Source: Acidobacteriota bacterium (GTDB lineage Bacteria > Acidobacteriota > Terriglobia > Bryobacterales > Bryobacteraceae). From it: 64,000 nucleotides of DNA. The first letter of the stretch is position 1. Every line of letters begins with the position of its first letter. Position numbers and translations under genes: made by a program. Shown here one piece after another: positions 2,125 through 62,059 of the stretch. The notes under the pieces were generated by a model. It ran no database searches. It saw nothing but the letters and a program-made list of their open reading frames with translations, and was not told the DNA's origin. Location: positions 1-64,000 of the forward strand of contig JACQDF010000030.1 of assembly GCA_016201205.1 (NCBI GenBank), in the 5' to 3' direction.

Positions 2125-2739
2125 CTATCGTCCAATGATAGGAATGTGCGGGGCTGCCGTGCGCGGCAGATCTCCGGTCAGGCGGGGGTCGCCGGCAAGC
2201 TCGATCGCGCGTTTGCAGGCGACGAAACACGATTTGATATAGAAGGCCAGCGCTTTCGGATGATCGAGTGTGCACGTATGCACCCAGAACCGCCGCGGCT
2301 TGTGCGACCACGCCTGTTCGATGGCGAACTGCATCAGGCAGCGTCCGGCGCCTGTGCCGATCAGATCCGTTGTAACGCCGAAGAAAGCGAGCTCGACGTC
2401 AGGCGGCTCGCGGCGGTCGAGCTCGATCAGGACCTTGGCAACGCCCTGGTGCTCCAAAGCGAACACGTCGACGCGCGGGTCGTGGATGATTGCGGCGAGC
2501 TCATCGTCGCTCATCCGCAGTCGGCTGAACCAGAGCCATTCCTCGCCGACCGCCCGAAACAAGCGCCGGTAGCAGTCCAGATCAGGCTTGCTGATGTCGC
2601 GGATCGAAAGGCCGGCGGGAAGCGGCAAGGGCTCGAAGGCCGGTTTGGCGCGCATCTCGAGAAAGGTCACGACAGCGGCGATTTTGCCGGCGGGCAAGTC
2701 GGTGTATCCGTCCGGGAGGATCATTCTATCAACCGCCAC
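2125..2739 (-). CDS. GNAT family N-acetyltransferase
   Basis: GVTTDLIGTGAGRCLMQFAIEQAW...VHTCTLDHPKALAFYIKSCFVACKR acetyl-CoA binding pattern. Confidence 0.75.
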   Translation of the reverse strand: MAVDRMILPDGYTDLPAGKIAAVVTFLEMRAKPAFEPLPLPAGLSIRDISKPDLDCYRRLFRAVGEEWLWFSRLRMSDDELAAIIHDPRVDVFALEHQGVAKVLIELDRREPPDVELAFFGVTTDLIGTGAGRCLMQFAIEQAWSHKPRRFWVHTCTLDHPKALAFYIKSCFVACKRAIELAGDPRLTGDLPRTAAPHIPIIGR

Positions 2740-2791
2740 TATACACCGGGTGGCCCGGTGGCAGGTGGTGCGCTAAAGGTGCGTTGCCGGT

Positions 2792-3126
2792 TTACGGAGT
2801 TTGATCGGTCTTGCTTGGAGGGTTCAGTGAGTCCAGAAAGTCTTGGTCAACCATAGTCCATCCATCCCGAGCGAGCATGAAAACCTTGTTCGCCTTCCTG
2901 AGGAACTCGATGCCCAATAATGGCCGTGAGGCGCTGGGCTCCAAGACGATAACGCCGTGAACCTTTTCGGATTCGACGACGACGGTTCCATAGGCCAACA
3001 ATTTAGGCTGCGAAGAGCCATCGGCAAGAGTCCAACTGCTTGTTCCGTATAGTGTGATGTGAGGGCAAGCGGAGACGCATCCATCAGCGGCATCAACAGG
3101 AAGCCCGTGAAGCCGGTGTCAATCAT
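2792..3126 (-). pseudogene. Retropepsin-like (clan AA) aspartic protease split by a frameshift
   Basis: Frame 1: MIDTGFTGFLLMPL...; after ~3050-3075 homology continues in another frame: ITLYGTSSWTLADGSSQPKLLAYGTVVVESEKVHGVIVLEPSASRPLLGIEFLRK. Confidence 0.6.
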
Positions 3127-3195
3127 AGCCTCGAATTCTTGCTGGAATTGCTCGGAGAGGCCGTAGACTTGGATTTTGATGATCGGGGACCGACG

Positions 3196-3492
3196 CTATC
3201 TAAAGAGCCAGTCTGAATTGGAGGCATTCTGGTAGGTTCCCATCTGAAAAGCGCTTGGGAAACCAACACGGATGAGATGGAACAGGTCGTCCGGGTCGGC
3301 GGCTCTTGCTTTTTCCAAGGCTTCCTCGGCGGTATCCCCGAGTGTGGCCGCTGACGTTTGCACGTTGATGGCGACGAACTTGCCATGATGCTCGCGCTCG
3401 TATTCTTCCTGGAACTTCAGCCTGTAGATGTCTTCCCCTAGCTTGGCCAGAACTTTGGGGTTGAGGGAATGAGGGTTCCTTGTTGCTGGCAT
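3196..3492 (-). CDS. Small hypothetical protein (gene directly upstream of the aspartic protease)
   Basis: MPATRNPHSLNPKVLAKLGEDIYRLKFQEEYEREHHGKFVAINVQTSAATLGDTAEEALEKARAADPDDLFHLIRVGF; plausible operon partner. Confidence 0.6.
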   Translation of the reverse strand: MPATRNPHSLNPKVLAKLGEDIYRLKFQEEYEREHHGKFVAINVQTSAATLGDTAEEALEKARAADPDDLFHLIRVGFPSAFQMGTYQNASNSDWLFR

Positions 3493-3673
3493 GGCGCTGC
3501 CTCCCGGATCTAGACGTTCGCGGACCGTCCGAGACGGACGGCCCATCAGTCTATCGAAACCATCGACAGCCTGCAACCACCACTTTAGCACAGAAACGCC
3601 AAAACAACAACGTGAAGTATTGTTTTTTCAGTACTTTAGAAGCGCAAAGGCCGCGCCCCGCGGCGCCAAGCCG

Positions 3674-3732
3674 TTGAGGAACACCGGAGTGTCCCTCCCG
3701 CGGGCGCGGTCCGTTTTGCGCGTGTTCCTCAA
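3674..3732. repeat. Inverted repeat TTGAGGAACA ... TGTTCCTCAA in intergenic DNA
   Basis: Perfect 10-bp arms at 3674-3683 and 3723-3732. Confidence 0.6.
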
Positions 3733-3861
3733 AGGCTCTTGCATGTCCCACACCCGATCCGCAATGCCTGCTTCCATCGCCGGGGTACCCGCAGGCTCCG
3801 GTGAATCTCAGCCGTGATCTCCTGGTGGCACACGCCAGCGAGGCAGTGTATGCTGTGAAGT

Positions 3862-5070
3862 ATGCTGAGGCAACTGGGCTTTTTCGCGGCAATGAGCGTT
3901 TTCACGGCGGGCGCCCTGTCCGCCGCCAAGGCGACCTTCTCCAAAGATGTCGCTCCCATTCTGAACAACCGCTGCGTCGAGTGCCACCGGGCGGGCGAAG
4001 CGGCGCCGATGGCGTTCACTTCCTACAAAGAGGCGCGGCCCTGGGCGAAGGCCATCAAAGCGGCCGTGCTGATCAAGAAGATGCCACCGTGGCTGGCCGA
4101 TCCTGCGCACGGGAAGTTCTCCAACGACCGGCGTCTGTCGCCGGAGGAGATCGAGACGATCACCGCCTGGGCGGATGCGGGCGCGCCGGAAGGCGATCCC
4201 AACGACTTGCCGCCTCCGCCTGAATTCGCGGCGGGCTGGAATATCGGCAAGCCGGACGCCGTCTTCGATATCGGCGAGGACTTTGACGTGCCGGCATCGG
4301 GCGTAGTGCCGTACAAGTACTTCACCGTAGAGACGAATTTCAAGGAAGACATCTGGATCGAGGCGGCCGAATGCCGTCCGGACAAGCGCGCCGCGGTGCA
4401 CCACATCATCGTGTTTGTGGTGGATCCGAAAGAGAACCTGGCAGGCACTGGCGGAAACCTGCTGGTCGGCTGGGCGCCGGGCGATCCGCCGATGAATTAT
4501 GCGCCTGGCACGGCGAAACTGGTCCGCGCGGGCTCGAAGCTCCGGTTCCAGATGCACTACACGCCCAGCGGCACGGCAGTGAAGGATCGCAGCCACGTGG
4601 GGTTGCGTTTCGCCAAACAGCCGCCCAAGCACCGCGCGCTCACAGGCCGTGCGCTGACCTTCAACTTTAAGATCCCCCCCTATGCGGACAACCACGAAGT
4701 AACCTCGAGCTTCACAGCGAAAGAAGAAGTCCGGGTGACGAGCCTGATGCCGCATATGCACGTGCGCGGCAAGGACTTCAAGTACACAGTCGTCTATCCG
4801 GATGGCCGCAGCGAGGTGCTTCTCCATGTCCCGAAGTACGATTTCAACTGGCAGTTGTCCTACGTGCTCGCCGAGCCGCTGGTGCTGCCGAAAGGCGCGC
4901 GGATAGACTGTGTAGCTCACTATGACAACTCGGCGAACAACAAGTACAACCCCGATCCCAGCAAGGAAGTGAAATGGGGCGACCAGACCTGGGAAGAGAT
5001 GATGATCGGGTGGTTCAACTACACAGTGGACGCGCAGCCGGTCCAGATTTCCAAGACCGGCGCCGAGTAG
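3862..5070 (+). CDS. c-type cytochrome / copper type II ascorbate-dependent monooxygenase-like protein
   Basis: Signal peptide, heme motif CVECH, then PHMHVRGKDFKY..., HYDNSANNKYNPDP..WGDQTWEEMMIGWFNY. Confidence 0.8.
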   Translation: MLRQLGFFAAMSVFTAGALSAAKATFSKDVAPILNNRCVECHRAGEAAPMAFTSYKEARPWAKAIKAAVLIKKMPPWLADPAHGKFSNDRRLSPEEIETITAWADAGAPEGDPNDLPPPPEFAAGWNIGKPDAVFDIGEDFDVPASGVVPYKYFTVETNFKEDIWIEAAECRPDKRAAVHHIIVFVVDPKENLAGTGGNLLVGWAPGDPPMNYAPGTAKLVRAGSKLRFQMHYTPSGTAVKDRSHVGLRFAKQPPKHRALTGRALTFNFKIPPYADNHEVTSSFTAKEEVRVTSLMPHMHVRGKDFKYTVVYPDGRSEVLLHVPKYDFNWQLSYVLAEPLVLPKGARIDCVAHYDNSANNKYNPDPSKEVKWGDQTWEEMMIGWFNYTVDAQPVQISKTGAE

Positions 5071-58888: not shown

Positions 58889-59212
58889 TTACAGCGTCTT
58901 CAGATAAGCGATGACGTGGTTTTTCTCTTCGTCGCTGAGGATTTCTTTGTAGGCTGGCATGCCGTTGCCGCCTTCGTTGATGACGCCGCGGACGGTTTCC
59001 TCGGTGGGCTTCTTGCCGTTGTTGAGCTTCGCCTTCTTGAAAAGCCCCTTCAGGCCAGGGCCCATTTTCTTTTCCTCGCTGTCGGCGTTGTGGCACACGC
59101 CGCACTGCTCGAATAGTTCTTTGCCCTTGTCCGGGTCGCCTTTCTGGAAGCCAGAGAGCAGATTGGCTGCAAGCACCACGGCGACACTGGCGGGGATCAA
59201 CTTCTTCAGCAT
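58889..59212 (-). CDS. Small c-type cytochrome
   Basis: Signal peptide; KGKELFEQCGVCHNADSEEKKMGPGLKGLF...GNGMPAYKEILSDEEKNHVIAYLKTL. Confidence 0.92.
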   Translation of the reverse strand: MLKKLIPASVAVVLAANLLSGFQKGDPDKGKELFEQCGVCHNADSEEKKMGPGLKGLFKKAKLNNGKKPTEETVRGVINEGGNGMPAYKEILSDEEKNHVIAYLKTL

Positions 59213-59291: not shown

Positions 59292-60344
59292 GTGCGCCCG
59301 GCGATCCTCCTGTTCGCCAAAGCCCCCGTGGCTGGCAGGGTCAAGACACGGCTATCGCCGCACCTGACACCCGGGCAGGCTGCCGCTCTGCACGAGCGAA
59401 TGGTATCCGACACGTGGAGCCGGCTGGAAGGGCTGGGTGATCTCGAGTTGCATACCGACGTAGCCACCGAGGCCTGGCCGCAAGCGGCTGTGCGAAGACT
59501 GCAAGTAGAAGGCGACCTCGGCGCGCGGATGTACCACGCGCTCGAGGCGGCTCTCGGCCAGGGCCGACCTCGAGTGATGATCGCCGGCAGCGACGCGCCG
59601 CAGCTTCCCGCGGCGCAGTTACGCGACTTGCTGAACGCTGATGCCGACGTGGCTTTGGGGCCTACCGAGGATGGCGGCTATTATGCGATTTCCTGCCGCC
59701 GCATCCATCCGCGCATGTTCGAAGGCGTGCGCTGGTCCACGCGCTCGGCTCTCAGTGACACCGCCGCCGCCGTGCTGCGCTGCGCGCTCAGCGTGCATGT
59801 CGGCGCTCCATGGTACGACATCGATACACCGGAGGATCTCGGCCGGCTGCCGGAATCCTGGAGAATGGAGCTTTGTATGCCATTGAAGGAAGGCGATCCC
59901 GCCCCGGCCATCCCGCTTCTCACTGATGAAGGCGCGGCGTTTGACTGGGCCGGTATCACCGGCCGTAACGCCGTGCTGTTCTTCTATCCACGGGCGGACA
60001 CGCCGGGTTGAACGGTGGAGGCGTGCGAGTTTCGCGACGCAATCTCCGATTTTCAAGACCTCGATGCGGTGATTCTCGGCATCTCCGGGGACACCGTCCA
60101 GGCGCAGGCGAAGTTCAAGAGGAAATACAACCTGCCGTTCGCGCTGCTGTGCGACACCGAGCATCGGGCTGCCGAAGCCTGCGGGGCGTGGGTGGAGAAG
60201 AACATGTACGGCAAGAAGTCCATGGGGATCGCCCGGACGACGCTGCTGATCGGCAAAGATGGCCGCGTCCGGAACATCTTCCGCAATGTAAGAGCGGCCG
60301 GTCACGCCGAGCAGGTGAAGCAGGCGCTGGCGGCGTTAGCGTGA
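59292..60344 (+). CDS. Putative fusion selenoprotein: DUF2064/TIGR04282-like transferase + BCP-type peroxiredoxin with Sec at the peroxidatic position (TGA 60009-60011)
   Basis: MRPAILLFAKAPVAGRVKTRLSPHLTPGQAAALHERMV...GSDAPQLPAAQL...LGPTEDGGYYAISCRR...DIDTPEDLGRLPESWRMELCMPLKEGDPAPAIPLLTDEG...AVLFFYPRADTPG[U]TVEACEFRDAISDFQDLDAVILGISGDTVQAQAKFKRKYNLPFALLCD.... Confidence 0.8.
60021..60040 (+). promoter_or_regulatory. Candidate bacterial SECIS hairpin
   Basis: GCGT-GCG-AGTTT-CGC-(G)-ACGC: stem with one bulge, AGUUU loop starting 17 nt after the TGA. Confidence 0.55.
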
Positions 60345-60390: not shown

Positions 60391-60467
60391 GCGCCTGTAG
60401 CTCAGTTGGATAGAGCGTCTGGCTACGAACCAGAAGGCCGGGTGTTCGAGTCACCCCAGGCGCACCA
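60391..60467 (+). tRNA. tRNA-Arg (ACG), CCA encoded
   Basis: GCGCCTGTAGCTCAGTTGGATAGAGCGTCTGGCTACGAACCAGAAGGCCGGGTGTTCGAGTCACCCCAGGCGCACCA. Confidence 0.95.
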
Positions 60468-60490
60468 TAGAATCAACGGCTTAGCTGCAC

Positions 60491-60738
60491 TTAACTGGAC
60501 TGGAACAAGATCGGACGTACGTGCTGGCGTAGCCGGACAAGCTCGCTTGCATTGTGCCGAAGGAGATTGTCCTCCCAAATTGTGTCAATTTCTTGACGAC
60601 AATCTTGCGCCATCGCCAGACCGATTGCCTCGTAGGAACAGGCTGCTCCAAACCCAGGAGAAAGCCGTTTGCCAATTGGCGATTGGCATCGTCTTCGGGC
60701 AGCACCAAGACGTGTGGCTTATACTTATTGACACTCAT
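60491..60738 (-). pseudogene. Internally deleted and frameshifted partner gene of the adjacent AAA ATPase
   Basis: N-term MSVNKYKPHVLVLPEDDANRQLANGFLLG in one frame; C-term FGAACSYEAIGLAMAQDCRQEIDTIWEDNLLRHNASELVRLRQHVRPILFQSS* in another frame; start overlaps ATPase stop. Confidence 0.55.
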
Positions 60739-61844
60739 GGCTCCACGTCGCCGCGGACCAGGGCGCCAACGAGATCCCCGCTGACTTCGATTTCGTCGAG
60801 CGGACGCACGATCGTGGGCTCAAGATGGCTTTTCCTGTAAAGCACAAGTGTGTTCTCGTCGGAAAAACGGCGGATCGCTTCGGGGTTGTGTGAAGTAGCG
60901 ATGAACTGACCGCCAGACTGGAAAGCTTTGCGCAGAGCCAGCACAAAGTGGCCAACTTCGGACAGTGCCAGGTGACTGTCAGGTTCATCCCAGAAACACA
61001 ACAGCGGGCCATAAGCGTCGTTTGCGGCAAGCACCAGGGCGCATATCATGAAACATTTTTCGCCGTCGGCCAGATCCTCAAAAGGAAGGTTCACGCTCCC
61101 CTGGTCGTTGGAAAACTGGACGACTAACCTGCGAGAGTCTTTGCCGTCCGCCGGATTCTTGATGTCCTTGAGGTCGGGCATCACTTGCCTGAGATAGTCG
61201 TCGATCTTGGTATACGCGGATGGGGCGTAAGCCAGGAGACCTGAAAACCAAGCGCCAAAGTCTGTGACCTGAAGATTCGGCTGCAGCATCTCTTCTTTGG
61301 AGTCTCCTCGAATCAGGCTGGGCGTTGGCCGAAGTATCAGCATCCGAGCAAGCCACTGCTTGAAGACGGATAAGGGATCGTTCGTCGATTGTTGCTGAAT
61401 TATCGGGAGAGCCATCAGGTGCCAGTCGATTCGGAAATCGGCCTCTTTCTCCTGGCCTGCTCTTGCAAGATGCACCTGCGCCAATTCTCGGGTGTAGACA
61501 GGCTTGCCGCCAACCGCGAGCTTCTCTTCGCGTACGCGAAGTTCTTTGAACCCTTTCGGGAGTTCGAGAGCAACAACGTACTGGTAGATCTCGGCTTCCA
61601 GCTCGACTTCGATTTCAAATCGCGTAGGCACATCTGTGCGTCCACGAGCAATGTCCTTCGGCTCAATCAGATCGCCCACTCGGTTCGTACCTCGCGCGAT
61701 CTTCTGTAGAATCTCCAACGCAAGGCCAACCGTTGTCTTGCCGGAGCCGTTGTTTCCAATCAGGAGCACGGACGACCGGCCCGAGACTGGCAACTCGAAG
61801 TTTTCCAGGCAACGGAAATTATGAACGTAGAGGCGACGGATCAC
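60735..61844 (-). CDS. AAA family ATPase (AAA_21/OLD-like, SMC/ABC-type)
   Basis: IRRLYVHNFRCLENFELPVSGRSSVLLIGNNGSGKTTVGLALEILQ...PFEDLADGEKCFMICALVLAANDAYGPLLCFWDEPDSHLALSEVGHFVLALRKAFQSGGQFIATSHNPEAIRRF. Confidence 0.88.
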   Translation of the reverse strand: MIRRLYVHNFRCLENFELPVSGRSSVLLIGNNGSGKTTVGLALEILQKIARGTNRVGDLIEPKDIARGRTDVPTRFEIEVELEAEIYQYVVALELPKGFKELRVREEKLAVGGKPVYTRELAQVHLARAGQEKEADFRIDWHLMALPIIQQQSTNDPLSVFKQWLARMLILRPTPSLIRGDSKEEMLQPNLQVTDFGAWFSGLLAYAPSAYTKIDDYLRQVMPDLKDIKNPADGKDSRRLVVQFSNDQGSVNLPFEDLADGEKCFMICALVLAANDAYGPLLCFWDEPDSHLALSEVGHFVLALRKAFQSGGQFIATSHNPEAIRRFSDENTLVLYRKSHLEPTIVRPLDEIEVSGDLVGALVRGDVEP

Positions 61845-62059
61845 AAGAGAATGATAACGCGCTTGGCGGCTGAAAACAGAAGCTTGCCTTCTCGTTCTGA
61901 ACGCCAGCCTCCGTATGGATTCCACTTTAAAACCGCCCGCCCATTTCGCTGCGGTTGACCAGGGCCGACGGCCTCAGATATGCTGTTAGAAGCGCTCGAT
62001 GTGGCCGACACCACTTTGCTACAGCGCTCTCGTCAAACAAAAGGAAATTGGTGTAAGGA

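Follow-up and report, generated by a model that had tools for sequence, protein, structure and literature searches.

Within the 64,000-nt stretch of DNA analysed here (the window), which belongs to the draft genome of a soil-type bacterium (G000; 7.0 Mb, 392 contigs, 94% complete), one continuous frame links a DUF2064 transferase-like domain to a PrxQ/BCP-type peroxiredoxin (Table 1). With TGA translated as selenocysteine (Sec, U), the sole internal TGA of the frame is U240. The GTG start matches the starts of DUF2064 genes in relatives (VRPAI/MRPAI). The upstream open reading frame, 59292–60011, has this TGA as its first stop, and the two domains share a frame with no stop between them, as the original prediction had stated. 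For either domain, the locus holds the only clear copy in the genome. Next to the downstream tRNA-Arg lie an AAA ATPase gene (OLD/RecF-like; minus strand, 60735–61925) and a small partner ORF (60481–60738), which may together be a tRNA-associated mobile or defence cassette.

Table 1. Features of the DUF2064-PrxQ locus in the window
Feature	Position	Strand	Basis or remark
DUF2064-PrxQ ORF, continuous	59292..60344	+	350 aa from a GTG start; residue 240 is Sec; ends at stop TGA 60342-60344
DUF2064/TIGR04282 nucleotidyl- or glycosyltransferase-like domain	59304..59840	+	Residues 5-183; Pfam/NCBIfam, PDB 3cgx match
Linker, formerly intergenic junction (RLPESWRMELC)	59841..59876	+	Comparison with syntenic G152
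ATG, ancestral peroxiredoxin start (MPLKEGDPAP)	59877..59879	+	6 nt after GGAG
PrxQ/BCP peroxiredoxin domain	59883..60332	+	Residues 198-347
In-frame TGA, peroxidatic position, read as Sec240	60009..60011	+	Translation, homologue comparison
SECIS-like hairpin GCG-UGCGA-GUU-UCGCG-A-CGC	60021..60040	+	Apical loop begins 18 nt downstream of UGA
Divergent neighbour encoding a small c-type cytochrome	58889..59212	-	Conserved in syntenic G152
tRNA-Arg(ACG), directly downstream of fusion ORF	60391..60467	+	Bounds transcription unit

Both domains are recognized by profile searches. Pfam assigns DUF2064 (4.5e-24) and AhpC-TSA (PF00578; 2.5e-29, above its cut-off), and the NCBIfam model TIGR04282 is matched over its full length (1–189 of 189) at 157.8 bits against a cut-off of 134. 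The PrxQ/BCP models of NCBIfam score 126–133 bits and fall short of their equivalog cut-offs (140 and 260). The motifs of the DUF2064 domain are intact (FAKAPVAGRVKTRL, GSDAP, GPTEDGGYYAI and DIDTPEDL). AlphaFold2 predicts the joined protein with a mean pLDDT of 95, falling to about 80 at residues 191–200, and thus confidently models two folded domains with a short, less certain linker. The old name of the transferase family, "rSAM/selenodomain-associated", reflected the co-occurrence of the family with an rSAM/SeCys protein. Because the current NCBIfam name of TIGR04282 concerns arsenosugar (arsenosugar-biosynthesis glycosyltransferase family, a label that in itself tests nothing), we rejected the family name as support for a functional link between DUF2064 and Sec-Prx, and found in it no tie to peroxiredoxins. 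In the open-licence literature searched, DUF2064/TIGR04282 is mentioned in passing only.

The internal TGA falls exactly on the peroxidatic Cys codon (PRADTPG-U-TVEACEF, a PxxxTxxU motif). Among 75 PrxQ sequences, this codon is TGA in seven (the window and six other genomes of the family) and TGC or TGT in 68, and the closest relatives within the window genus carry TGC or TGT. Sec and Cys forms are intermixed on the tree, with six changes needed. Since TGA recurs at this codon in six other genomes of the family, its position is not due to chance. The frame, the domains and the 68 Cys homologues therefore bear out the proposal of a BCP-type peroxiredoxin with TGA at the peroxidatic Cys. TAG or TAA at the active site of other genomes was also considered and rejected, as in the loci read the listed stops fall outside the active site. 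The window protein retains the resolving Cys (EACEF). In the Sec forms of the family, this residue is lost in four of seven (L086, L092, L094 and L100, in G052, G094, G121 and G122), where His or Asp stands in its place (EAHEF or EADGF for EACEF), against one of 42 Cys forms (Fisher, 8e-4); in three of these four, the CAC codon lies inside the SECIS-like stem.

The genome encodes tRNA-Sec (77 bits, confirmed by ARAGORN), SelB (391.5 bits) and SelD (366 bits, with an in-frame TGA). The selenium machinery that the original prediction had proposed looking for is thus present, together with a second Sec redoxin and with the exception of SelA. selA was not found in the 94%-complete assembly, while 11 of the 12 genomes of the genus have it. 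Its usual syntenic neighbour in relatives is also absent from the assembly and, given these two observations, an assembly gap is likely; with that neighbour missing as well, we do not favour the reading in which selA was lost and Sec decoding is dead. SelD is itself a selenoprotein (L169, G000:C253:5198-6121) with a GGU-loop hairpin downstream. The second redoxin is a secreted-looking, Prx-like protein with a TGG-U-TKEM motif (L101, G000:C344:2760-3383; also L125 and L140), which also carries Sec in relatives of the same genus and is a conserved selenoprotein of the genus. In both of these other Sec genes of the genome, a hairpin with a G-rich 3-nt loop lies downstream of the UGA.

The window UGA is followed at +18 nt by the GUU apical loop of an 8-bp hairpin. 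At the SECIS site, five of seven Sec genes of the family have stems of 7 bp or more, versus three of 42 Cys genes (Fisher, 5e-4), a test weakened by relatedness and codon constraint. By itself, the fold energy of the window hairpin does not stand out (z = -1.28), and the stem overlaps with codons that are conserved. Together, the machinery genes, the recurrent TGA and the hairpins make it very likely that the TGA is decoded as Sec, and on these sequence grounds we have high confidence that the locus encodes a real Sec-PrxQ.

Across all the loci compared, 36 same-strand DUF2064/PrxQ pairs were classified. Tightly linked pairs number 26, with 13 overlapping or abutting in another frame, 10 in frame with a stop, and three continuous; in the remaining 10 of 36, from ten genomes, the genes are separated by about 1.4–1.6 kb (L069, L070, L072-L074, L076, L082, L084, L134 and L135). 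Adjacency is found in many species, the two genes being ordinary neighbours in this bacterial family, and judged by these genomes the pair is old in the family. In G143, G154 and G155, which belong to the window genus, about 1.45 kb separates the two genes, which share a contig; the gap in G143 (L069, G143:C73, reverse strand 2735-4040) holds a gene for an ArsA-like ATPase whose C-terminal part is chaperone-like, followed by the start of another, small gene. In the syntenic genome G152, the genes are adjacent: the transferase stop TAA is followed by 16 nt, GAGGGGAGAATCGATC, which contain GAGGGGAG, and then by the ATG of a Cys-PrxQ in another frame.

The three continuous cases are the window, the only one with Sec, and the Cys forms of two sister species of genus g5 (G459:C508, L158, and G417:C443, L159). 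A join unique to the window genome is thereby refuted, the TAA in G459 and G417 being the terminal stop of continuous ORFs. Relative to G836, the g5 join reflects a net one-base change at the junction. In G459 and G417, purifying selection acts on each of the domains (dN/dS 0.25 and 0.11), and the linker changes freely yet remains open. Because the join is found in the window and separately in the g5 pair, the comparison places its origin in at least two events. It is absent from the orthologues of all sisters in the window genus (12 genus genomes), and no further joined case was found among 396 genomes of the phylum at E<=1e-65, a threshold that would miss distant ones. The proposed fusion is thus upheld as regards the open frame and the existence of Cys DUF2064-PrxQ fusions in the family, but no sister in the genus shares it; similarly, a stop between the domains in relatives, which would have spoken for separate genes, or a frame break, is kept in 23 of the 26 tight pairs, with three continuous. 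We conclude that the peroxiredoxin is probably truly joined in frame to DUF2064, and we regard this as a new form of the known Sec-PrxQ.

The junction in the window reads CTG CCG GAA TCC TGG AGA ATG GAG CTT TGT ATG CCA, and a single substitution in the TGG at 59859-59861 would restore a stop. GGAG occurs at 59860-59863 and at 59867-59870, the latter 6 nt before the ATG at 59877, and pairs with the anti-Shine-Dalgarno sequence at -6.4 kcal/mol (duplex energy). As the ancestral ATG and its GGAG are retained, a separate peroxiredoxin may also be made, and its initiation alongside read-through is plausible. No clear Shine-Dalgarno sequence was found before the peroxiredoxin ATG of G459 and G417, so a single product is more likely there; L158 and L159 are more suitable than the window gene for testing whether a true fusion protein exists. 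Because the genus sisters lack the join, the tight pairs are mostly split and the peroxiredoxin keeps its own ATG and GGAG, we treat one 37-kDa product of the window gene as a prediction only.

The explanation we favour, and consider probable, is that a Sec-PrxQ gene has lost the stop and frame break that separated it from its neighbour and now yields a two-domain protein of about 37 kDa, possibly along with a stand-alone peroxiredoxin. The PrxQ gene would originally have been a tightly linked neighbour of the DUF2064/TIGR04282 transferase gene. With the stop and frame break lost in the window lineage, ribosomes starting at the transferase GTG would continue into the peroxiredoxin and produce the two-domain protein, and the retained GGAG-ATG could also start the peroxiredoxin on its own. 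SelB and tRNA-Sec would decode the UGA as Sec, aided by the hairpin just downstream, and the Sec-containing PrxQ is predicted to reduce peroxides; Sec insertion, peroxidase activity and the product set are what we infer from the genes. Where Sec is not inserted, GTG-started ribosomes, which meet no stop before the UGA, would end there after 239 residues, giving a complete transferase domain with a tail of 40–50 residues. A stronger version, in which selenium sets the output of a bifunctional selenoprotein (transferase-peroxiredoxin with Sec, the 239-residue transferase-only form without) and one UGA acts as the switch, seems to us unlikely.

The open frame could instead be incidental. In that case, the ATG at 59877 would be the main start, giving a 17-kDa selenoprotein on its own through translational coupling of the kind seen in relatives, and any joined protein would be minor or useless. 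We see this as a credible but lesser possibility. The retained GGAG with its anti-Shine-Dalgarno pairing fits it, as do the syntenic G152 pair, with Shine-Dalgarno sequence, ATG and stop, the separate genes of most relatives, and the fact that after loss of a stop chance alone joins one frame in three. However, with no stop before the UGA, any translation of the transferase must enter the peroxiredoxin, and the two other joined species keep the join without a clear Shine-Dalgarno sequence ahead of the peroxiredoxin ATG.

Errors in the DNA sequence are the other concern. That a stop was lost through an error of sequencing or assembly in the draft appears improbable. In favour of such an error, the TGG is one substitution away from TGA or TAG, an indel of one or two bases would also separate the genes, the join is absent from the rest of the genus (12 genomes), and the assembly is in 392 contigs. 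Against it, substitution errors in a consensus are rare, and two independent assemblies of another genus show such joins to be real in the family. Still less credible, in our view very improbable, is that the TGA is a true stop or a misread TGC or TGT, leaving a truncated peroxiredoxin or an ordinary Cys enzyme. The Cys codons of the closest genus relatives and the failure to find selA point that way, whereas the frame and protein beyond the TGA are intact and homologue-like, the genome has Sec machinery and two further Sec genes, and downstream hairpins are enriched in Sec genes; a sequencing error, which the original prediction had raised, is further disfavoured because six more genomes from the family also have TGA here.

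The two-domain Sec-PrxQ reading has several consequences. The locus adds a Sec form to a conserved, little-studied gene pair, and the separated, overlapping, in-frame-with-stop and joined junctions within one family trace a route to the fusion of neighbouring genes. Routine annotation would stop at the UGA, and the active site of the peroxiredoxin would go unnoticed. A joined protein, if real, would tie peroxide reduction physically to the transferase, providing a handle on the role of DUF2064. We found no description of a DUF2064-peroxiredoxin fusion in the open-licence literature, in line with the earlier statement that no description of a direct transferase-SecPrx fusion was known.

Sec-containing peroxiredoxin (Prx, PF00578, TxxU) is a long-known bacterial selenoprotein family (PMC1794560, PMC13188914). 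The window protein shares with it the AhpC-TSA domain, the PxxxTxxU motif with Sec as the peroxidatic residue, the occurrence of Cys homologues in most relatives and a tree on which Sec and Cys forms are mixed, and differs in having a DUF2064/TIGR04282 domain attached to its N terminus. Global Ocean Sampling data (PMC2398784) contain Sec-Prx/PP2C-phosphatase fusions, along with other fused Prx-like selenoproteins, and thus set a precedent for linking a Sec peroxiredoxin to a domain of another kind, although the partner here is another one, DUF2064, without a known redox role. PDB 4eo3, a solved structure of a BCP/NADH dehydrogenase fusion, likewise couples PrxQ/BCP to another enzyme; judging from the PDB label, it carries Cys, and it has the PrxQ part N-terminal and a different partner. 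The transferase part resembles typical TIGR04282/DUF2064 proteins (PDB 3cgx) in being a whole domain, above the NCBIfam cut-off and with intact motifs, but these are normally stand-alone genes, whereas the window copy reads into PrxQ. The fusions of G459 and G417 have the same domain order in a continuous ORF and come from the same bacterial family; unlike the window protein, they carry Cys, and they arose separately, through a change of frame at the junction relative to G836.
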